64,000 nt of DNA from Salinimicrobium sediminilitoris (lineage in GTDB: Bacteria; Bacteroidota; Bacteroidia; Flavobacteriales; Flavobacteriaceae), in the NCBI RefSeq assembly GCF_020866905.1, contig NZ_JAIVCC010000005.1, positions 732,088-796,087 of the forward strand. The letters run 5' to 3'. This document shows, piece by piece, positions 45,629 through 58,509 of this stretch. The position numbers and the translations under genes were made by a program. The number at the start of each line of letters is the position of its first letter. The first letter of the stretch is position 1. Below the pieces are notes generated by a model. That model had not been told where the DNA came from. It saw only the letters and a list, made by a program, of their open reading frames with translations, and searched no databases.

Positions 45629-48172
45629 ATGGCGAAGAATTTAGTGATTGTAGAGTCCCCCGCAAAGGCTAAGACCATTGAAAAATTTCTGGGCAAAGAT
45701 TATATCGTTGCCTCGAGTTTTGGTCATATTGCCGATCTTCCCACCAAAGAACTTGGGGTGGATACCGAGGGTGATTTTACTCCTAAATATATAGTATCCC
45801 GCGACAAAAAAGATGTCGTCAAGAAGCTCAAGAGCTTAGCAAAGAATGCCGACATGGTTTGGCTGGCGAGTGATGAGGACCGGGAGGGAGAGGCTATTGC
45901 CTGGCACCTGGCCGAAGAGCTTAAACTTGATAAGGATAAAACCAAAAGAATTGTATTCCATGAGATCACCAAATCTGCTATTCTTAAAGCAATCGAGAAT
46001 CCACGTGGGATCAATTATAATCTTGTAAACGCACAGCAGGCCCGTAGGGTTTTAGACAGGCTGGTAGGTTACGAACTTTCTCCCGTATTGTGGAGGAAGG
46101 TTAAAGGCGGACTTTCTGCCGGAAGGGTGCAGTCTGTTTCTGTGAGATTGATCGTGGAGCGAGAGCGGGAAATTCAAAATTTTCAAGCTGAAGCCTCTTT
46201 TAGAATAGATGCCGAATTTACTAATGAAGAAGGAAAGACCTTTAAAGCGAAACTTCCGAAGAATTTTGACACCAAAGCTGAAGCTGAACAATTTCTTTCA
46301 GATAATCTTGGCGCAAACTTTAAAGTAGCCGATCTTACTACCAAACCGGCAAAGAAATCACCTGCTCCACCATTTACGACTTCCACGCTTCAGCAGGAAG
46401 CAGCCAGGAAATTATATTTTTCGGTAAGTAAGACAATGACCATGGCCCAGCGTCTTTATGAGGCGGGACATATTACTTATATGAGAACCGATAGCGTCAA
46501 CCTTTCTGACGATGCAAGAAAAGGTGCCAAAAAAGAGATTTTAGACGCCTATGGGGAAAAGTACAGCAAGACCCGGCAGTTTAAAGGAAAGACAAAAGGG
46601 GCGCAGGAGGCACACGAAGCAATTAGGCCAACCAACTTTGCAGCGCATAGCGTGAAGGCAGACAGGGATGAGCAGAGGTTGTATGAACTTATATGGAAAC
46701 GGGCGATCGCTTCCCAAATGAGTGAGGCTCAACTTGAACGTACAAACGTTAAGATTGAGGCCGATAAGCATGACAAGCAATTCACTGCCAACGGGGAGGT
46801 GCTAAAATTTGATGGTTTCCTTAAAGTGTATCTTGAGGGGAGAGATGAGGAAGATGAAGAAGTACAGGAGCAGGAAGGAATGCTACCGGCATTGCGGGTG
46901 AATGAAAAGCTTGAAAATGAATATATAACCGCAACCGAAAGGTTTACGCGTCCACCTTACAGATATACCGAAGCTTCTTTGGTGAAGAAACTGGAGGAGC
47001 TGGGAATTGGCCGTCCTTCAACTTACGCGCCAACAATTTCTACTATTCAAAACAGAAATTATATTGAAAAAGGATCTGTTGACGGTACCGAGCGGGAGTA
47101 TGTTCAGATTAGTCTGAAGAATGAAAAAATTAATGAAAAGAAACTTACAGAAAATGTAGGTAGCGATAAAGGAAAATTAGTGCCAACCGATGTTGGAATG
47201 GTGGTGAATGACTTCCTGGTAAACCATTTTTCGGGTATTCTTGACTATAACTTTACGGCTAAAGTGGAACAGGATTTTGATGATATAGCCGATGGTAATG
47301 AGGAATGGACAAAGATGATGAAGGATTTCTACAGCGATTTTCATCCTCGTGTTCAGGACGTGGCCGAAAATGCCGAAAGAGAAGTTGGGGAGAGAATTCT
47401 GGGTACAGATCCAACTTCCGGAAAACCTGTAAGCGTGCGCCTTGGGAAATTTGGTCCTATGGTACAAATGGGTTCTGTTGAGGATGAGGAAAAACCGAAA
47501 TTCGCGAGCCTTTCACCAGATCAAACGCTTGATTCCGTCACTTTTGAAGAAGCTATGGAGCTGTTCAAGCTTCCGAAGGAATTAGGGGAATATGAAGGAG
47601 AAAAAGTGGAGGTGAACAATGGACGTTTTGGACCATATGTTAGGTATGGAAAAAAATTCGTTTCCCTTGAAAAGGGGGAGGATCCCATTGAAGTGACAAT
47701 GGAGCGGGCGCTGGAGTTGATCAAGGAAAAAGAAAAAGCCGATGCTCCTATTTATGAGTATAAAGACCTTCCGGTACAAAAAGGTATCGGGCGTTTTGGA
47801 CCCTTCCTTAAATGGAACGACATGTTCATCAATGTCAATAAAAAATATGATTTTGATAATCTTTCCGCAGAAGATATTGAAGAACTAATCGAAGATAAGA
47901 TCAAGAAGGAGCGCGAAAAGGTGATCCATAACTGGGAAGATGAAGGAATTAGGGTTGAAAAAGCCAGGTGGGGGCGGTCTAATATTATAAAAGGTAAGAC
48001 TAAAATTGAATTACCTAAAACTGTTGATGCTGCCAAACTTAGCCTTGAAGAAGTGAAGGATATCATAGAAAAAAAGGCGCCAAAGAAAAAAGCGGCAAAA
48101 AAATCCACAGGTACTAAAAAGACAGCTGCCAAAAAAACAACCCGTAAAAAAACCACCTCCAAAAAGAAGTAA
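45629..48172 (+). CDS. topA: DNA topoisomerase I
   Basis: This 847-aa type IA topoisomerase relaxes negative supercoils. It has the N-terminal Toprim domain (LVIVESPAKAKTI, and DEDREGEAIAWH), catalytic Tyr284 in ITYMRTDS, and C-terminal repeated Toprim-C-like domains instead of zinc fingers. The last ~30 residues (about 818-847) are a Lys-rich, histone-like tail (KKAAKKSTGTKKTAAKK…), a common feature of Bacteroidota proteins for DNA binding. Confidence 0.96.
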   Translation: MAKNLVIVESPAKAKTIEKFLGKDYIVASSFGHIADLPTKELGVDTEGDFTPKYIVSRDKKDVVKKLKSLAKNADMVWLASDEDREGEAIAWHLAEELKLDKDKTKRIVFHEITKSAILKAIENPRGINYNLVNAQQARRVLDRLVGYELSPVLWRKVKGGLSAGRVQSVSVRLIVEREREIQNFQAEASFRIDAEFTNEEGKTFKAKLPKNFDTKAEAEQFLSDNLGANFKVADLTTKPAKKSPAPPFTTSTLQQEAARKLYFSVSKTMTMAQRLYEAGHITYMRTDSVNLSDDARKGAKKEILDAYGEKYSKTRQFKGKTKGAQEAHEAIRPTNFAAHSVKADRDEQRLYELIWKRAIASQMSEAQLERTNVKIEADKHDKQFTANGEVLKFDGFLKVYLEGRDEEDEEVQEQEGMLPALRVNEKLENEYITATERFTRPPYRYTEASLVKKLEELGIGRPSTYAPTISTIQNRNYIEKGSVDGTEREYVQISLKNEKINEKKLTENVGSDKGKLVPTDVGMVVNDFLVNHFSGILDYNFTAKVEQDFDDIADGNEEWTKMMKDFYSDFHPRVQDVAENAEREVGERILGTDPTSGKPVSVRLGKFGPMVQMGSVEDEEKPKFASLSPDQTLDSVTFEEAMELFKLPKELGEYEGEKVEVNNGRFGPYVRYGKKFVSLEKGEDPIEVTMERALELIKEKEKADAPIYEYKDLPVQKGIGRFGPFLKWNDMFINVNKKYDFDNLSAEDIEELIEDKIKKEREKVIHNWEDEGIRVEKARWGRSNIIKGKTKIELPKTVDAAKLSLEEVKDIIEKKAPKKKAAKKSTGTKKTAAKKTTRKKTTSKKK

Positions 48173-48175
48173 TTT

Positions 48176-49330
48176 ATGGAACTGGAATTTTTTACGCCGG
48201 TTAACGCAGAGCTTGCAGAAATTGCAGGAAATAAGCTGCGGTCTTCCCTTAGAATTCATCTTGAGGATAAAGCTTTTCCCGATCTTGATGGGGTGAAAAT
48301 CGCCTTTTTTGGTGTTCTGGAAGATCGTCTTGATGAAGAGCCAACAGGGGAACCTTTTAACTTTGATGACATTCGCAGGGAATTTTATAATCTGTACCCC
48401 GGCAACTGGCATTTACCAATGGCCGATCTGGGGGATATTCAAAAAGGGGAGACTGTTGAAGATACTTTTTTTGCTGTCCAGTCTGCTGTAAATGTGTGTC
48501 TCAAAAAAGGGATCATTCCTGTCATTTTAGGCGGGAGTGAAGATTTAGTATATGCGCAATACAGGGCGTATGACGGGGTTGAGCAAATGGTAAACCTGGT
48601 GAATATTGATTCCAAATTTGATCTTGGAGACGCTGATAAACCTATTAGCAATCGTTCATATGTAGGAAAGATTGTGGTAACCAAGCCATATAATCTCTTT
48701 AATTATTCCAGCCTGGGATATCAAACGTATTTTAATTCACAGGATGAAATAGAATTGATGGATCGTTTGTTCTTCGATGCCTATCGTCTTGGGGAAGTTA
48801 CAGGGGATATTACAGTGATTGAACCGGTAATGAGGGATGCTAATCTTGTAAGTTTGGATCTTGGTGCAATTAGTGGAGGAGCCCTTGGTAACTACCGGCT
48901 TAAATCGCCAAATGGTTTTGATGGAAAGGAAATTTGTGCTTTGTCCAGATATGCCGGTATAAGTGATAAAGTATCTTCATTTGGTGTATATGAGTATACT
49001 GCACGACTTAATTTTCCTGCATCCAGAATGTTAATCGCACAGATTCTTTGGTATTTTGTGGAGGGAGTGAATTTCAGAAAGAATGAAAATACTATTTCCT
49101 CAAAAAAAGAGTTTATAAGATATCAGGTGCCAATTGATGATGAAATACTGGTGTTTTACAAGAGTCCCGTGAGTGGTCGCTGGTGGATAGAGATTCCTTT
49201 TATTTCCCCGGTAAGTAATAAACTTAAACGGCATACGTTATTACCTTGCACGCAAGGAGATTATTTGGATGCCTGCAATCAAATCATCCCTGAGAGGTGG
49301 TATAAAACTAAAAGGAAAAACGAAATTTAA
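48176..49330 (+). CDS. Arginase-fold protein, formimidoylglutamase-like but lacking metal-binding motifs
   Basis: This 384-aa protein has a ureohydrolase (arginase/agmatinase/HutG) fold. The three manganese motifs of active enzymes are altered: GGDHS reads GGSED (residues 119-123), DAHxD reads DSKFD (145-149) and SxDxDxxDP reads SLDLGAISG (226-234). It is therefore probably not a ureohydrolase, despite similarity to enzymes annotated as formimidoylglutamase. It lies 3 bases after topA and just before gldK. It is probably a structural or regulatory protein; its link to gliding or type IX secretion is suggested only by position. Confidence 0.85.
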   Translation: MELEFFTPVNAELAEIAGNKLRSSLRIHLEDKAFPDLDGVKIAFFGVLEDRLDEEPTGEPFNFDDIRREFYNLYPGNWHLPMADLGDIQKGETVEDTFFAVQSAVNVCLKKGIIPVILGGSEDLVYAQYRAYDGVEQMVNLVNIDSKFDLGDADKPISNRSYVGKIVVTKPYNLFNYSSLGYQTYFNSQDEIELMDRLFFDAYRLGEVTGDITVIEPVMRDANLVSLDLGAISGGALGNYRLKSPNGFDGKEICALSRYAGISDKVSSFGVYEYTARLNFPASRMLIAQILWYFVEGVNFRKNENTISSKKEFIRYQVPIDDEILVFYKSPVSGRWWIEIPFISPVSNKLKRHTLLPCTQGDYLDACNQIIPERWYKTKRKNEI

Positions 49331-49442
49331 TGATATAAACATTTGTAGCTTCTGCATTTTGACTAAATAAATTGTTTATTAGAAAATAAATAAATAGGTT
49401 TACTGCCTTGGAGCTATTATGTCCTAACTTTTGAGAGATATT

Positions 49443-50798
49443 ATGAGGAAACTTATTTCGCTTATTGCTGTAATTTCTGTTTTGGCCTCTTGTGGCCGCG
49501 GTGATCAGGGGCAATTGGTAGGTGCGCAGGGAAAAAAATGGCATCCCGAAAAGCCCCTGGGAATGACATTAATTCCCGGTGGGGCGTTCATCATGGGTAA
49601 AAGTGATGATGATATTGCCGGTTTAAAGAATGCACCGCCCAAAACTGTAACAGTTCGTTCCTTTTACATGGACGAGACCGAGATTACAAATGCAGAGTAT
49701 CGACAATTTGTGAACTGGGTTAAAGATTCAGTGACCAGGATGAAATTGGCCATTTTTGCCGAAGAGATGGGTGAAACTCCGGGAACTGGAGGTATTGGTG
49801 AATTTGCCTTTGCCGATACCGAAGAAGCCGATATGACTCCGTACGAGAAGTATATGTACGATAACTACTATAGCATGGGTGGTTATGAAGGTCGAAAGAT
49901 TAATAAAGATGTAGATATTATATGGGATACCAGGGACTATCCCGATGAGTATTATGCCGAAGTAATGGATACCTTATATATTCCCATTGAAGAAGCATAC
50001 AACGGGCAGCGTTCTTTTGATGTGAACCATCTTAAATTTCGTTATACCTGGATGGACGTGAGCTCGGCAGCAAGAGCTGAACCGGGACGACGTGCCGACT
50101 TTATTGAAACTGAAGAGATCCAGATCTATCCCGACACAACGGTTTGGATCAAGGATTTTAATTACTCCTATAACGAGCCAATGCACAATGATTACTTCTG
50201 GCATGACGCTTATGGAGAGTATCCGGTGGTGGGTGTTTCCTGGAAACAAGCCCGTGCTTTTGCACAATGGAGAACGCTTTACCACAATTCTTACCGAAAA
50301 GAAAGAGGTAAGCATAATGTGAATTCTTACCGCCTGCCAACAGAGGCAGAATGGGAATACGCAGCCCGTGGTGGTCTGGAATCTGCTACTTATCCCTGGG
50401 GTGGGCCTTATACCAAGAATGACCGTGGTTGTTTTATGGCTAACTTCAAACCATTAAGAGGGGATTATGCAGCCGATCAGGCTCTTTACACAGTTGAGGC
50501 AAAATCTTATGAACCTAACGATTACGGGCTTTATAATATGGCCGGTAATGTTGGGGAATGGGTTTTCTCATCTTATGATCCGGCTTCTTATGAGTATTCT
50601 TCATCTATGAACCCTTCTGTAAACGATGAGGCGAACATGCGAAAAGTAGTTCGAGGGGGATCATGGAAAGATGTAGCGTACTTCCTGCAGGTGAGCTCAA
50701 GGGATTACGAATATGCGGATTCTGCACGTAGCTACATTGGCTTTAGAACTGTGCAGGATTACATGGGGACAGATCTTACCCTCAACCAAACAAGATAA
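49443..50798 (+). CDS. gldK: Gliding motility / type IX secretion lipoprotein GldK (PorK)
   Basis: This 451-aa lipoprotein has a lipobox ending LASCGRG (C17). The rest is a formylglycine-generating-enzyme (SUMF1)-like domain, with LIPGGAFIMGKS at the start and VVGVSWKQARAFAQW, RLPTEAEWEYAARGG and VVRGGSWKD later. GldK and GldN form the periplasmic ring of the type IX secretion system. The ATG at 49443 is chosen over an in-frame TTG at 49431. It starts the gldKLMN operon. Confidence 0.95.
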   Translation: MRKLISLIAVISVLASCGRGDQGQLVGAQGKKWHPEKPLGMTLIPGGAFIMGKSDDDIAGLKNAPPKTVTVRSFYMDETEITNAEYRQFVNWVKDSVTRMKLAIFAEEMGETPGTGGIGEFAFADTEEADMTPYEKYMYDNYYSMGGYEGRKINKDVDIIWDTRDYPDEYYAEVMDTLYIPIEEAYNGQRSFDVNHLKFRYTWMDVSSAARAEPGRRADFIETEEIQIYPDTTVWIKDFNYSYNEPMHNDYFWHDAYGEYPVVGVSWKQARAFAQWRTLYHNSYRKERGKHNVNSYRLPTEAEWEYAARGGLESATYPWGGPYTKNDRGCFMANFKPLRGDYAADQALYTVEAKSYEPNDYGLYNMAGNVGEWVFSSYDPASYEYSSSMNPSVNDEANMRKVVRGGSWKDVAYFLQVSSRDYEYADSARSYIGFRTVQDYMGTDLTLNQTR

Positions 50799-50853: not shown

Positions 50854-51498
50854 ATGGCACAAGCAAAGTCAAGTAAGAAACTAATGAACATGGTGTATGG
50901 TTTAGGTGCATCTGTAGTTATCCTGGGAGCACTTTTTAAAATTATGCACTGGCCCTTCGGTAACGAAATGCTTATTATCGGTCTTATTGTAGAAGCGCTG
51001 GTATTTGCGGTTTCTGCATTTGAGCCTGTAGATGATGATGTTGACTGGTCACTCGTCTACCCGGAGCTTGCAGGTGGTGAAACAACTGTACGCAACAATC
51101 AAGCGGTAGTTACCGATCAGGAAACTGAGGGTATGCTTTCCCGTAAACTTGATGAGATCCTTCGTGAGGCTAAAATCGATGCCGGACTTATGAGTAGTCT
51201 GGGAGAAAGTATTAGAAATTTCGAAGGTGCCGCAAAAAATATCACTCCTACTGTAGATGCTATGGCTTCTCAAAAGAAGTACAGTGAAGAAATGAGCCTT
51301 GCAGCAAACCAATTGGAGTCCTTGAACAGTATTTATAAAGTGCAGGTGGAATCAGCCGGACGTCAGGCAGAAGTTAATGAAGCAGTAGCCGAAAATGCAA
51401 ACAGATTGAATGAGCAAATGGAATCTTTGGCTTCCAACCTTTCTTCTCTTAACAGTGTGTATGGAGGAATGCTTTCTGCTATGCATGTAAAAGCTTAA
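50854..51498 (+). CDS. gldL: Gliding motility / type IX secretion motor protein GldL (PorL)
   Basis: This 214-aa inner-membrane protein has two helices (about residues 15-33 and 38-55) with the motor signature KIMHWPFGNEML between them. The cytoplasmic part is helical. GldL forms a 5:2 complex with GldM that converts proton flow into rotation. It follows gldK by 55 bases. Confidence 0.96.
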   Translation: MAQAKSSKKLMNMVYGLGASVVILGALFKIMHWPFGNEMLIIGLIVEALVFAVSAFEPVDDDVDWSLVYPELAGGETTVRNNQAVVTDQETEGMLSRKLDEILREAKIDAGLMSSLGESIRNFEGAAKNITPTVDAMASQKKYSEEMSLAANQLESLNSIYKVQVESAGRQAEVNEAVAENANRLNEQMESLASNLSSLNSVYGGMLSAMHVKA

Positions 51499-51546: not shown

Positions 51547-53091
51547 ATGGCGTCTGGAAAACAAACACCAAGACAGAAGATGATTAACCTGATGTATCTG
51601 GTTTTCATCGCAATGATGGCTCTTAACATGTCCAAAGAAGTACTTACAGCCTTTGGAATGATCAATGAGAGCCTTGCGGAATCAAACGCTTCTGTTACCG
51701 AAAGAAATATCGCCGCTATGGCGGGGCTGGCAGCAAAAGCTGAAGAACAACCGGCAAAATATGTTCCCTTAAAGGAAAAAGCAGAACAAATCCATACCCT
51801 TACTACCAATTTTACTACTTATATCGACAATCTCAAAGAGAAAGCTCTTGAGGATATAGAAGGAGAAGAGCGGGAAGACTATGAAGCAATGGACCAGTCT
51901 GCTAAACTTGATGAGTATCTTTTCTCAAGTGGTCAGCCAAGTCAGGCCGGAAAGGAATTTCTTGCTGAAATAGAGAAATACCGCGAAGGAGTAGCAAATG
52001 TGCTGGGAGAAGAGTTCTCTCAAATCGCAGCTGAAGTTAAAAGAGAATTTAGTACAGAACCTGTGGTTGATGGAGAAGGTGTAAAACGGCCGTGGCTTGC
52101 TTACAACTTTGAAGGATTTCCATTAATTGCCTCCCTTACAAAGTTGACTCAAATGCAAGGGGATGCAAAATCTGCAGAAAACGATGCACTTTCCGCAATG
52201 CTTTCTGGTCAATTACAAAGTGAAGTTTCCCTTACAAATTATGAAGCTCTGGTTATTCCAGATAAAACTGCATTTTTTAGTGGTGAAAACTTTACAGGTA
52301 CAGTAGTATTAGGACGTGTAGATAATACATTGCAATTTGATAAAGTTACCATTAACGGTCAGGATGTAAAATCTACCAAGGCCGGGCAAGTGAAGTTGGA
52401 ATTCCCTGCAGGGAATGTTGGAGAGCAGAAAATTAGTGGTCAGCTTCAGTTTAAAGAAGGGGATTCTATTGTAACTATTCCTGTGAACCAAAGTTATAGT
52501 GTTATACCTAAGCCTAATTCAGCAGTTATTTCTGCAGATAAAATGAATGTCGTATATCGTGGGGTTGCAAACCCAATGACTATTTCTATTCCTGGAGTTG
52601 GAAACGTTTCAGCTAATGCACCTGGTTTAAGATCTACTGGTGGTGCGGGTAATTACATTATGGATGTAACCACCCTTCAGGCACGTGAAGTGACCATTAA
52701 CGTTAGTGGGGAGCTACCAGGCGGAGAAAGAGTTAGCGACAGTAAAACATTTAGAGTACGTGATATTCCGAGACCTGTTGGAACTGTAAGAGGGGAAGAC
52801 GGGACTGTGAGAATGCAGCGTCAAAACCTTGAAATTTCGACCATTGGAGCAGCTCTTCCCGATTTCGAATTTGATGTTGATCTAAGGGTCACAGGATTTA
52901 AATTCCGTGTGCCGGGTCAGCCTACAATTCAGGTAAGAGGACAAAAACTTGACCAAAGCGCCATTGCAGCTCTTAGAAGAGCAGGAAGAGGAGAGACTAT
53001 CCAGATCTTTGATGTGGAAGCGCAACTTGCCGGTAGTTCAGGCTATAAGCTGAAGCAGGTTTCTCCGGTACTGGTTGAATTAACAAATTAA
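51547..53091 (+). CDS. gldM: Gliding motility / type IX secretion motor protein GldM (PorM)
   Basis: This 514-aa protein has one N-terminal helix (residues 13-33) carrying NLMYLVFIAMMALN. It then has a long periplasmic part with several beta domains that bridge the inner-membrane motor to the GldK/GldN ring. The conserved ALNMSKEVLTAF after the helix is diagnostic. Confidence 0.96.
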   Translation: MASGKQTPRQKMINLMYLVFIAMMALNMSKEVLTAFGMINESLAESNASVTERNIAAMAGLAAKAEEQPAKYVPLKEKAEQIHTLTTNFTTYIDNLKEKALEDIEGEEREDYEAMDQSAKLDEYLFSSGQPSQAGKEFLAEIEKYREGVANVLGEEFSQIAAEVKREFSTEPVVDGEGVKRPWLAYNFEGFPLIASLTKLTQMQGDAKSAENDALSAMLSGQLQSEVSLTNYEALVIPDKTAFFSGENFTGTVVLGRVDNTLQFDKVTINGQDVKSTKAGQVKLEFPAGNVGEQKISGQLQFKEGDSIVTIPVNQSYSVIPKPNSAVISADKMNVVYRGVANPMTISIPGVGNVSANAPGLRSTGGAGNYIMDVTTLQAREVTINVSGELPGGERVSDSKTFRVRDIPRPVGTVRGEDGTVRMQRQNLEISTIGAALPDFEFDVDLRVTGFKFRVPGQPTIQVRGQKLDQSAIAALRRAGRGETIQIFDVEAQLAGSSGYKLKQVSPVLVELTN

Positions 53092-53102
53092 ATCATTAGA
53101 AC

Positions 53103-53996
53103 ATGAAGTGGAACCAAATATTGTTAGGATTATGCGGATTGCTTGTTTCGGGCACCTCTTTGGGTCAAACTAATCTTTTAAACGCTAAGAGCCCCGACGA
53201 GATAGGAGGTCCAACCAAAGCAGACGTTACTTATGGAAAGAACGATCCTTTGGAATATGGATATGTGGATGACAGGGATGTACTGTGGGCAAAATCCACC
53301 TGGGAGGTCATAGACCTAGATGAAAGGGTGAATTTTCCATTGTATTATCCCATAGATACTAACCAAATTGGGAGTTCAAGAAGATCACTTTATGATGTAT
53401 TGGTTGCCGGCATTAAAAGCGGAAAGATCAAAAATATCTATGCCGACTCCTATTTTAATGACAAGCGTACCCTAGATGATATACAGGCTGCCTTGTCTAA
53501 GGTAGATACTACAGATCTTGGTATTGAACAGTATAATGCAGGGGAGGAAATCGACCCACAGTTCATTAGCCGCAGGGACATTTCCTCTGCCGATATTGCT
53601 GAGTATCACATTCGTGGATACTGGTATTTTGATAAACGCCAGGCCGAACTTAAATACAGGTTACTCGGAATTGCACCTGTTGCGCCCGATGTTAACTTTA
53701 TTGATCAGGGTGGAGCCTCGGCTCTAGTGGAATTGTTCTGGGTTTGGTTTCCAGGAGCAAGGGAAGTCTTAAATGAGGCTTACGCTTTTAATCCTCAAAA
53801 CACTTCAAATCCTGTTTCTTTTGACCACTTGCTCAATGCAAGAAGATTTAATGCAGTGATCTATGCTGAAGATAACGTGCAGGGGGACCGACAGGTTGAT
53901 GATTACATTAATAACAATGCTTTTATGCAGTTGCTCGAATCTGAACGTATAAAGGAACAAATAAGAAATTTTGAACAGGATATGTGGAATTACTAA
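53103..53996 (+). CDS. gldN: Gliding motility / type IX secretion ring protein GldN (PorN)
   Basis: This 297-aa periplasmic protein has a signal peptide (residues 1-22, ending SLGQ). Conserved regions include DVLWAKSTWEVIDLDERVNFP and the RGYWYFDKRQ segment. It assembles with GldK below the outer membrane. It follows gldM by 11 bases and is followed by a strong terminator, so gldKLMN ends here. Confidence 0.95.
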   Translation: MKWNQILLGLCGLLVSGTSLGQTNLLNAKSPDEIGGPTKADVTYGKNDPLEYGYVDDRDVLWAKSTWEVIDLDERVNFPLYYPIDTNQIGSSRRSLYDVLVAGIKSGKIKNIYADSYFNDKRTLDDIQAALSKVDTTDLGIEQYNAGEEIDPQFISRRDISSADIAEYHIRGYWYFDKRQAELKYRLLGIAPVAPDVNFIDQGGASALVELFWVWFPGAREVLNEAYAFNPQNTSNPVSFDHLLNARRFNAVIYAEDNVQGDRQVDDYINNNAFMQLLESERIKEQIRNFEQDMWNY

Positions 53997-54068: not shown

Positions 54069-55127
54069 ATGAAAGACTTTATAATTGTTGGCGCAGGTCT
54101 TAGCGGAAGCTGTCTTGCTTACAGGCTCGAAAAAAGCGGAAAATCCTTTGTTGTTTTTGATGACGAAAGCCAGGAAGCCTCAAAAGTAGCCGGCGGATTC
54201 ATGAATCCTGTCATCCTGAAGCGTTTCACCATGGCATGGAAGGCCGATGAACAGCTGGACATTGCCTACAGGTTTTACAGGGACATGGAAGAGACTTTGG
54301 GAAAGACCTTTTTAGGACCTTTAGAGGTCTACAGGCGGTTTTCTTCGATTGAGGAGCAGAACGACTGGTTTACTGCAGCCGATAAGCCTAAATTGGCTCC
54401 ATATCTCGACACCAATCTTGTTTCGAACCTCAATAAACATATTCCCGGACAATTTTCTTTCGGAAAAGTCCTTGGAACATCCCGCATCGATCCACGTTAT
54501 CTTCTGGAATCTTATGCGGAATATCTACAGGAAAAAGGATCTTTTATAAAGGAGACTTTTGATTACGATAAGTTGGAAATTGACTCTTCAGGCGTCAGGT
54601 ACAAAAATCTAAGTGCCAAAAATGTCATTTTTTGTGAAGGTTTCGGACTAAAAAATAATCCATTTTTCAACTATCTTCCGTTAAGAGGGAACAAAGGAGA
54701 ATACATTATTATAAAAGCACCCGGGCTCGATCTTGAAGTAGGGGTGAAATCCTCTATCTTCATTTTTCCTGCGGGGGATGATCATTATGCTGTAGGTGCG
54801 ACTTACAGTAACAGCGACAAAACACCCGGACCTACTACAGCAGCACGGGAGGAACTAATTAAAAAACTGAAAGACCTTATTAAAATAGATTTTGAAGTGG
54901 TGGATCAGGTTGCCGGACTTAGACCTTCTACAATTGACAGGAGGCCACTGGTGGGACAGCATCCAAAATTCAGCAATCTCTACACCTGTAATGGGTTTGG
55001 AAGCCGGGGCATTCTCATAGCTCCTTCAATATCCCGGGAACTTCTAAGCTATATTGAAGAAGGGGAAGCACTGGATCCAGAGATCAACATTTCAAGATTT
55101 TCCAAAAAATGGTATAGAGAAGCTTAA
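54069..55127 (+). CDS. FAD-dependent oxidoreductase (DAO family)
   Basis: This 352-aa flavoprotein has the N-terminal dinucleotide motif GAGLSGSCLAYRLE (residues 7-20). GLRPSTIDRRPLVG and CNGFGSRGILIAP complete the DAO-type fold. Members oxidise amino acids or related amines (glycine oxidase, MnmC-C, DadA), but the substrate here is unknown. The C-terminal stop overlaps the convergent DUF983 gene by 4 bases. Confidence 0.88.
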   Translation: MKDFIIVGAGLSGSCLAYRLEKSGKSFVVFDDESQEASKVAGGFMNPVILKRFTMAWKADEQLDIAYRFYRDMEETLGKTFLGPLEVYRRFSSIEEQNDWFTAADKPKLAPYLDTNLVSNLNKHIPGQFSFGKVLGTSRIDPRYLLESYAEYLQEKGSFIKETFDYDKLEIDSSGVRYKNLSAKNVIFCEGFGLKNNPFFNYLPLRGNKGEYIIIKAPGLDLEVGVKSSIFIFPAGDDHYAVGATYSNSDKTPGPTTAAREELIKKLKDLIKIDFEVVDQVAGLRPSTIDRRPLVGQHPKFSNLYTCNGFGSRGILIAPSISRELLSYIEEGEALDPEINISRFSKKWYREA

Positions 55128-58431: not shown

Positions 58432-58504
<73 letters not shown>

Positions 58505-58509
58505 CTAGC

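Follow-up and report, generated by a model that had tools for sequence, protein, structure and literature searches.

A conserved ureohydrolase-fold protein with an altered metal site, often encoded between topA and gldKLMN in Bacteroidia

The genome of Salinimicrobium sediminilitoris encodes a protein of the arginase type between topA and the gldKLMN genes of gliding and the type IX secretion system (T9SS), raising the question of whether this gene still specifies an enzyme and, if not, what it is retained for. The locus lies on a stretch of 64,000 nucleotides (assembly GCF_020866905.1, contig NZ_JAIVCC010000005.1, positions 732,088 to 796,087), hereafter the window. A preliminary description made from the letters alone had noted that all three metal motifs of the protein are altered and had proposed a structural or regulatory role in gliding or type IX secretion. 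On the + strand, the gene order is topA, pseudo-ureohydrolase gene, gldK, gldL, gldM, and gldN (Table 1). The closest named genome is that of Salinimicrobium sp. TH3, with 98% identity for the window protein. In the following, genomes, loci (and the sequences taken from them), contigs, and family labels are given as G, L, C, and f numbers, respectively.

Table 1. Features of the pseudo-ureohydrolase locus in window coordinates
Feature	Position	Strand	Basis or remark
topA	45629..48172	+	3 bp 5' of the pseudo-ureohydrolase gene
Pseudo-ureohydrolase ORF, 384 aa	48176..49330	+	PF00491 match, family profile, dN/dS
GGSED motif, residues 119-123, where GGDHS is expected; MnA His replaced by E122	48530..48544	+	Aligned to two proteins of this genome, SpeB-like (GGEHS) and HutG-like (GGGHN)
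DSKFD motif, residues 145-149, where DAHxD is expected; both Asp retained, MnB His replaced by K147	48608..48622	+	Alignment
SLDLGAISG, residues 226-234, where SxDxDxxDP is expected; D228 retained, second Asp replaced by G230	48851..48877	+	Alignment
Family-specific C-terminal module, approximately residues 304-384, border approximate; F327, W336, W337, C358, Y363, P372	49085..49327	+	Alignment columns; no Pfam match
Candidate gldK promoter, TTG - 20 bp - TAGGTTTA	49372..49402	+	Intergenic gap, by eye, without statistics
gldK	49443..50798	+	TIGR03525, 603 bits; likely ATG start inside an ORF listed from TTG 49431
gldL	50854..51498	+	TIGR03513, 242 bits
gldM	51547..53091	+	TIGR03517, 537 bits
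gldN	53103..53996	+	TIGR03523, 262 bits

Some details of the surroundings can be added. The gldK ORF begins with TTG (49431-49445), but the actual start is more likely the ATG at 49443, immediately 5' of the lipoprotein signal MRKLISLIAVISVLASC. The candidate gldK promoter is one letter off what we take to be the Bacteroidota consensus. A DAO/ThiO-like FAD oxidoreductase gene (54069-55127) is located 3' of gldN, as is also the case in L004, L031, L040, L059, and L083, and a tRNA-Met (cat) gene is found on the + strand at 58432-58505.

The ureohydrolase (arginase) fold, already recognized in the preliminary description, can be regarded as shown at the sequence level: the window protein scores 36.3 bits against Pfam Arginase PF00491 (cut-off 22), with 3m1r_A as best profile match in the PDB (5e-15). 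In a Foldseek comparison with the PDB, 194 matches were obtained at E<=0.001; the 50 listed were all ureohydrolases, with a probability of 1.00 for the match to ureohydrolases. The AlphaFold2 model, calculated from 62 alignment rows, reached a pLDDT of 71.9 and a pTM of 0.74 and is weak at residues 150-210. Structural re-comparison, covering residues 11-303 and leaving the C-terminal module outside, gave the formiminoglutamase of T. cruzi as best match (Z 23.9, rmsd 3.0, 241 aligned residues), and HutG of B. subtilis reached Z 21.0. The highest 19-residue Kyte-Doolittle mean is 1.39 and there is no hydrophobic segment, so the protein is presumably cytosolic.

Alignment with the other two PF00491 proteins encoded in this genome placed the six ligand positions at E122, D145, K147, D149, D228, and G230, which we take to correspond to H101, D124, H126, D128, D232, and D234 in arginase numbering. 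Three of the six are lost (E122, K147, and G230 instead of His, His, and Asp) and three are retained (D145, D149, and D228). The motifs had been read exactly, letters and residue positions alike; GGSED stands against GGEHS/GGGHN, DSKFD against DAHAD/DAHTD, and DLG against DLD/DCD in the two comparison proteins. Under the assignment to MnA and MnB that we assume here, the MnB-only ligands are lost and the three MnA Asp persist. The statement that every ligand set is disturbed therefore applies to each of the three motifs, but not to the three presumably MnA-type Asp.

To what extent this pattern is a family trait was evaluated in an alignment of 193 rows, comprising 170 family members and 23 ordinary ureohydrolases; the rows were the best ORFs of the fetched loci, the window protein, and the two own-genome controls, with identical rows and two copies of the window gene removed. 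Homologues with intact metal motifs, which the preliminary description had set against its own reading, did not appear within the family: all six ligands are intact in 0 of the 170 sequences. The first ligand is Q in 135 rows, H in 19, N in 9, E in 3, and another residue in 4, whereas the Asp at the D124, D128, and D232 positions is kept in 157, 155, and 162 rows, respectively. The MnB His is kept in 4 of 170 and the second Asp of DxD in 6 of 170 sequences; five of these six are f2 sequences of the form NSISND, which have lost the other three metal Asp, yet their genes still encode 356-358 aa. The Glu aligned with E277 is present in 123 of 170. Among the controls, 20 of 23 keep all six ligands if H or N is allowed at the first position (N in 3), the exceptions being L195 with N at D128 and L203 and L204 with C at D232. 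What homologues share with the window protein is consequently the loss of ligands and not its exact letters, as position 122 illustrates (Q in 135, E in 3 of 170).

Other residues are far more constant. R67, Y71, D84, Q183, E216, and R220 are invariant in 166 family rows, a count excluding the four degenerate rows L148-L151, and F327, W336, W337, C358, Y363, and P372 of the C-terminal module are 97-100% conserved in 166 rows. In 22 or 23 of the 23 ordinary ureohydrolases, the alignment has gaps at the conserved C-terminal columns, and the last 85 residues of the window protein, searched alone against Pfam, gave no match. In a midpoint-rooted tree including 47 family rows (long rows L001, L147, and L150 were flagged), the family forms one side of a branch opposite the 23 control ureohydrolases with a support of 100/100. 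Since the first ligand varies, both MnB-only ligands are lost and the f2 form lacks three Asp, we argue from these alignments that a metal is probably not what the family conserves; conservation lies instead in R67, Y71, D84, Q183, E216, R220, and the C-terminal Trp and Cys.

For the seven pairs with orthologues from named Salinimicrobium genomes, dN/dS ranged from 0.030 to 0.056 in five, with dS saturated in the other two. These values, which indicate purifying selection, together with the 0 of 170 sequences bearing all six ligands and the conservation across the class sample, exclude a chance motif or a decayed gene. A search of viral contigs with one peptide pattern from the family alignment yielded no relative.

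Retention of the Asp residues leads to the consideration that the protein is still an active enzyme, with a mononuclear metal site built from three Asp plus H, Q, or E and acting on a new substrate. The presence of MnA-type Asp in most members (155-162 of 170), compatible with mononuclear chemistry, is a point against reading the family as pseudoenzymes, and both the 19 of 170 rows with a His as first ligand and the six residues invariant in 166 rows would fit an active site. The variable first ligand (Q, H, N, E, S) and the five f2 sequences, which persist as genes of 356-358 aa after losing all three Asp, stand against such an enzyme, which we consider improbable. Judged from the sequence, it is very unlikely that the window protein is a ureohydrolase enzyme.

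The genome itself provides further information with regard to the common label formimidoylglutamase, which had been doubted from the outset. It contains three PF00491 genes, on contigs C16, C11, and C10, the last being the window gene. The C11 gene is HutG-like with all ligands intact and adjoins an ORF read by eye as an imidazolonepropionase (hutI-like), and the C16 gene looks like an agmatinase (SpeB-like); as neither protein reaches the HutG cut-off, these names are a reading only. On NCBIfam hutG (TIGR01227) the window protein obtained 44 bits against a cut-off of 229.15, a test that is weak on its own because the C11 protein also stays below the cut-off of 229 with 72.3 bits (86 bits for the C16 protein). 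A hut gene neighborhood is absent at the window gene, whose neighbors are topA and gldKLMN. Based on ligands and gene context, a catalytic HutG was rejected, and the label is almost certainly wrong for the window gene because a HutG-like gene with all ligands is found elsewhere, beside a hutI-like gene.

Placement between topA and gldKLMN, as first described, is not a peculiarity of the window but is conserved well beyond Flavobacteriaceae. Among the best 80 of 436 relatives, topA lies 5' on the same strand in 79 of 80 and gldK 3' in 79 of 80, the two misses (L030 and L050) being locus ends. In these Flavobacteriaceae loci, the gap to topA has a median of 3 bp (<50 bp in 75 of 79) and that to the gldK ORF a median of 110 bp. 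Of 59 further loci, three of which repeat genomes counted before, 51 have topA 5' and 51 have gldK or a gene of PorP type 3'; the exceptions are seven f3 loci with neither, L184 with topA only, and L182 without room for topA. By tblastn, sixteen loci from outside Flavobacteriaceae showed the complete order topA - gene - porP - gldK, with partial versions in L173, L182, and L185; NCBIfam profiles verified the PorP assignment in L114 and L122, the latter retaining porP-gldKLMN without topA. Among the class genomes listed with both positions, the gene is located at most 9 kb from a GldM gene in 41 of 68, representing 17 family labels. A distance of <=1.3 kb to gldK was found for 32 of the 69 carriers in the phylum sample, and the gene is unlinked to gldK in the remaining 37 of 69 (f2, f3, f4, f5, f8, and f9).

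The unlinked carriers differ in their surroundings. In f2, topA is found within 0-2 ORFs in 5 of 5 loci with gldK elsewhere, and in the fetched f3, f4, f8, f9, and f5 loci topA is not nearby. In 3 of 5 f5 loci (L148, L149, and L151), a shortened, degenerate member abuts a MurF gene beside a GldJ-like gene, with porP or porU nearby in two of the three; L147 and L150 have no murF/gldJ-like context. MurF and PorP of L148 exceed their NCBIfam cut-offs, GldJ of L148 and L151 stays slightly below (410 and 404 vs 458 bits), and the PorU ORF of L149 is truncated by the locus end (296 vs 420 bits). In these three members, the match to the family profile (97-126 bits) covers the C-terminal half of the profile; scores of ordinary ureohydrolases go up to 153 bits, but their matches do not extend beyond profile position 308. 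As seen by eye, the f2 members without the three metal Asp (L142-L146) lie 5' of glycosyltransferase-looking genes, and the f8 loci L125, L127, L128, and L129 have an nqrF-like gene 5' and kinase-like and murQ-like genes 3'.

Such neighborhoods could be explained by a housekeeping gene tied to topA or to general growth, with the gldKLMN adjacency reflecting inherited gene order only. The 3 bp median gap to topA, the f2 loci, the near-universal presence in the class sample, and the retention in genomes without T9SS markers (see below) are in line with this. It is on balance a rather unlikely explanation: the fetched f3, f4, f8, f9, and f5 loci have no topA nearby, L122 dispenses with it, and linkage to T9SS genes in two separate locations would not be expected.

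The distribution of the gene was therefore set against that of the T9SS marker GldM. In a phylum sample of 296 genomes, the window protein matches 126, ordinary ureohydrolases included; judged by match ranges and family labels, 69 are family carriers, all of them with GldM over the cut-off. GldM-positive genomes number 71, so that 69 of 71 carry the gene (exceptions G190 and G249), and matches in the other 225 genomes do not extend past residue 338. The family profile matches 305 of 325 class genomes, a few of them doubtful (G349, G378, G380, and G452 score like ordinary ureohydrolases and may not be orthologues), and GldM is over the cut-off in 303 of these 325, with any match in 309. A GldM match without a profile match was found in G311, G341, G388, G435, G443, G455, G469, G477, G492, G190, G249, G547, and G571, of which G341, G435, G455, G477, and G547 are 56-82% complete. 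The labels f10, f11, f98, and f107 include GldM-positive genomes without the gene. Absence rests on a profile threshold of E<=0.001, which might overlook members with the degree of degeneration seen in f5.

Conversely, nine class genomes have a profile match and no GldM match; seven of them possess SprA and can therefore not be counted as T9SS-negative, leaving G517 and G347 without GldM and SprA. G517 is 99% complete. G347 was counted as uncertain, its contig ending 467 bp 3' of the gene. Neither a profile match nor GldM was detected in G317, G230, G238, G408, G416, G520, and G534, where SprA is present in G408 and absent in G317, G534, G230, G238, and G416. In a family sample of 189 genomes, each at least 90% complete, the gene and GldM over the cut-off were each found in 187 of 189: G743 and G750 lack the gene and have GldM and SprA; in G619 and G724, no GldM over the cut-off accompanies the gene. 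G619 was dismissed as a T9SS-negative keeper, considering that SprA is present and the contig ends just after gldL, representing an assembly gap. G724 (1.2 Mb, 95% complete, gene E 4.8e-69) has no SprA either. Two cases, G517 and G724, thus keep the gene without both markers, and a strict co-occurrence with the T9SS, as tested by GldM and SprA, fails with exceptions both ways.

Some gene-less lineages are distinct in their motor protein. GldM of G492 and G388 matches best to the PorM-named chain 7cmg_A with 535 and 687 bits, vs 121 and 120 bits with the highest-scoring chain bearing only the name GldM, so we regard these lineages as PorM-like; the PorM-named chains are, we presume, those of P. 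gingivalis. For f10 (L190), 7cmg_A is also the closest chain, although with a weak 85.7 bits. In L188 (G388) and L191 (G190), both from genomes without the gene, a confirmed PorP gene lies directly 5' of gldK. A strongly diverged gene (best E 8.6e-57) was observed beside gldKLMN in G683 (L217:11297-11998).

A cytosolic protein dedicated to assisting or regulating the T9SS/gliding motor, for example by binding the cytosolic part of GldL, comes near to the role initially proposed. The topA-gene-porP-gldKLMN order common to many families, the presence in 69 of 71 GldM-positive phylum-sample genomes with the other 225 lacking any match past residue 338, and the three f5 members in a gldJ/murF region would all be accounted for. 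Opposed to this are the retention in G517 and G724, the absence from GldM-positive G388, G571, G443, G469, G492, G190, and G249, and the missing gldK linkage in f2, f3, f4, f5, f8, and f9, and we rate such a dedicated function as possible but rather doubtful. From the initial proposal there remain the conserved placement and a presence broadly tracking the T9SS, while an exclusive part in T9SS or gliding has to be abandoned in view of the unlinked 37 of 69 carriers, the gene-less GldM-positive genomes of f10, f11, f98, and f107, and the two keepers. Gene order at two different loci together with broad co-occurrence makes a T9SS link of the family suggestive, not proven; the tight topA coupling (3 bp vs 110 bp), the unlinked families, and the exceptions both ways speak against it.

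Taken together, we favor with some confidence the reading that the gene product is a cytosolic member of the ureohydrolase superfamily that has become a pseudoenzyme, a binder and not a catalyst, whose partner perhaps belongs to the envelope or T9SS-gliding apparatus and whose role is wider than the T9SS. It builds on what the sequences establish, namely the fold, the loss of the MnB-only ligands, the C-terminal module specific to the family, purifying selection on the gene, and, in many families, the order topA - gene - porP - gldKLMN; the middling model (pLDDT 71.9) counts against it. The protein would descend from a HutG-like enzyme, would have lost ureohydrolase activity, and would work by binding. 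It probably forms a ureohydrolase-type oligomer, in which the C-terminal module and the remodelled pocket may hold a partner or a small ligand, and at most one metal would be bound, by three Asp plus Q, E, or H. With less weight, the partner could be sought within the cell-envelope or T9SS-gliding machinery, e.g., at the cytosolic face of GldLM, the role probably not being confined to the T9SS. A bolder and rather unlikely version sees an arginase-fold cytosolic envelope factor placed ahead of porP-gldKLMN since early in the class, a sensor or scaffold coupling the cytosolic state to the GldLM motor, which was overlooked as PorM-type (P. gingivalis-like) T9SS lineages lack it.

A description of the family protein was not found in titles and abstract openings, among the matches listed, of the open-access literature, and a term search within PMC10936215 and PMC12635249 gave no arginase- or formimino-named protein. 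The relevant parts of a T9SS review describe co-transcription of porPKLMN with a variable place of porP and do not mention the family gene (PMC5445135). For a gene that almost every sampled member of the Bacteroidia retains, an incorrect enzyme name would easily be assigned. Were a role in the envelope or the T9SS motor true, the protein would represent a cytosolic component so far missing from a rotary machine that has been studied intensively. In addition, the family offers a natural series of pseudoenzymes by stage of metal-site loss, from GGSHD and GGSQD forms to the f2 form without three metal Asp.

In comparison with known systems, the family resembles HutG (3m1r of B. subtilis, 4mxr/4myk of T. 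cruzi) in its fold and, for part of its members, in a first motif of the GG.[HN][DE] type, but it lacks the MnB His and the second Asp of DxD, carries an extra C-terminal module, and is located outside a hut locus. The arginase fold is also shared with the arginase-like protein of Trypanosoma brucei (4rhm, Z 16.2), the title of 4rhm referring to a mutant with D and H put in; the natural protein, we assume, binds no metal. It differs in being eukaryotic, in the replacement of other ligands, and in having no gldKLMN link. MetCb/MfmB of metformin hydrolase (8x3g, 8ryi) is likewise an arginase-fold pseudoenzyme, with a profile match of 1.4e-6 to 8ryi_C; the parts of PMC11271267 dealing with MetCb describe a metal-free binder with five of six ligands lost and an extended C-terminal loop. 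By analogy, and as far as those parts go, MetCb may serve as precedent for a pseudoenzyme with arginase fold that functions in binding. That the window protein is itself such a non-catalytic partner subunit of another ureohydrolase would agree with this precedent and with a further PF00491 gene in 31 of 32 genomes. We judge it highly improbable: MetCb is paired with an adjacent active subunit, whereas no partner gene adjoins the window gene (none within the window, the other two PF00491 genes being on other contigs), the additional matches vary in number and score between genomes, and G178, the one of 32 without any PF00491 match, keeps its member, so that MetCb-like pairing was rejected. The family is, unlike MetCb, class-wide and set in a topA/T9SS neighborhood. 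With the T9SS motor genes porP/gldKLMN it has this neighborhood in common in many families, but no homology of the window protein to any T9SS component was seen.
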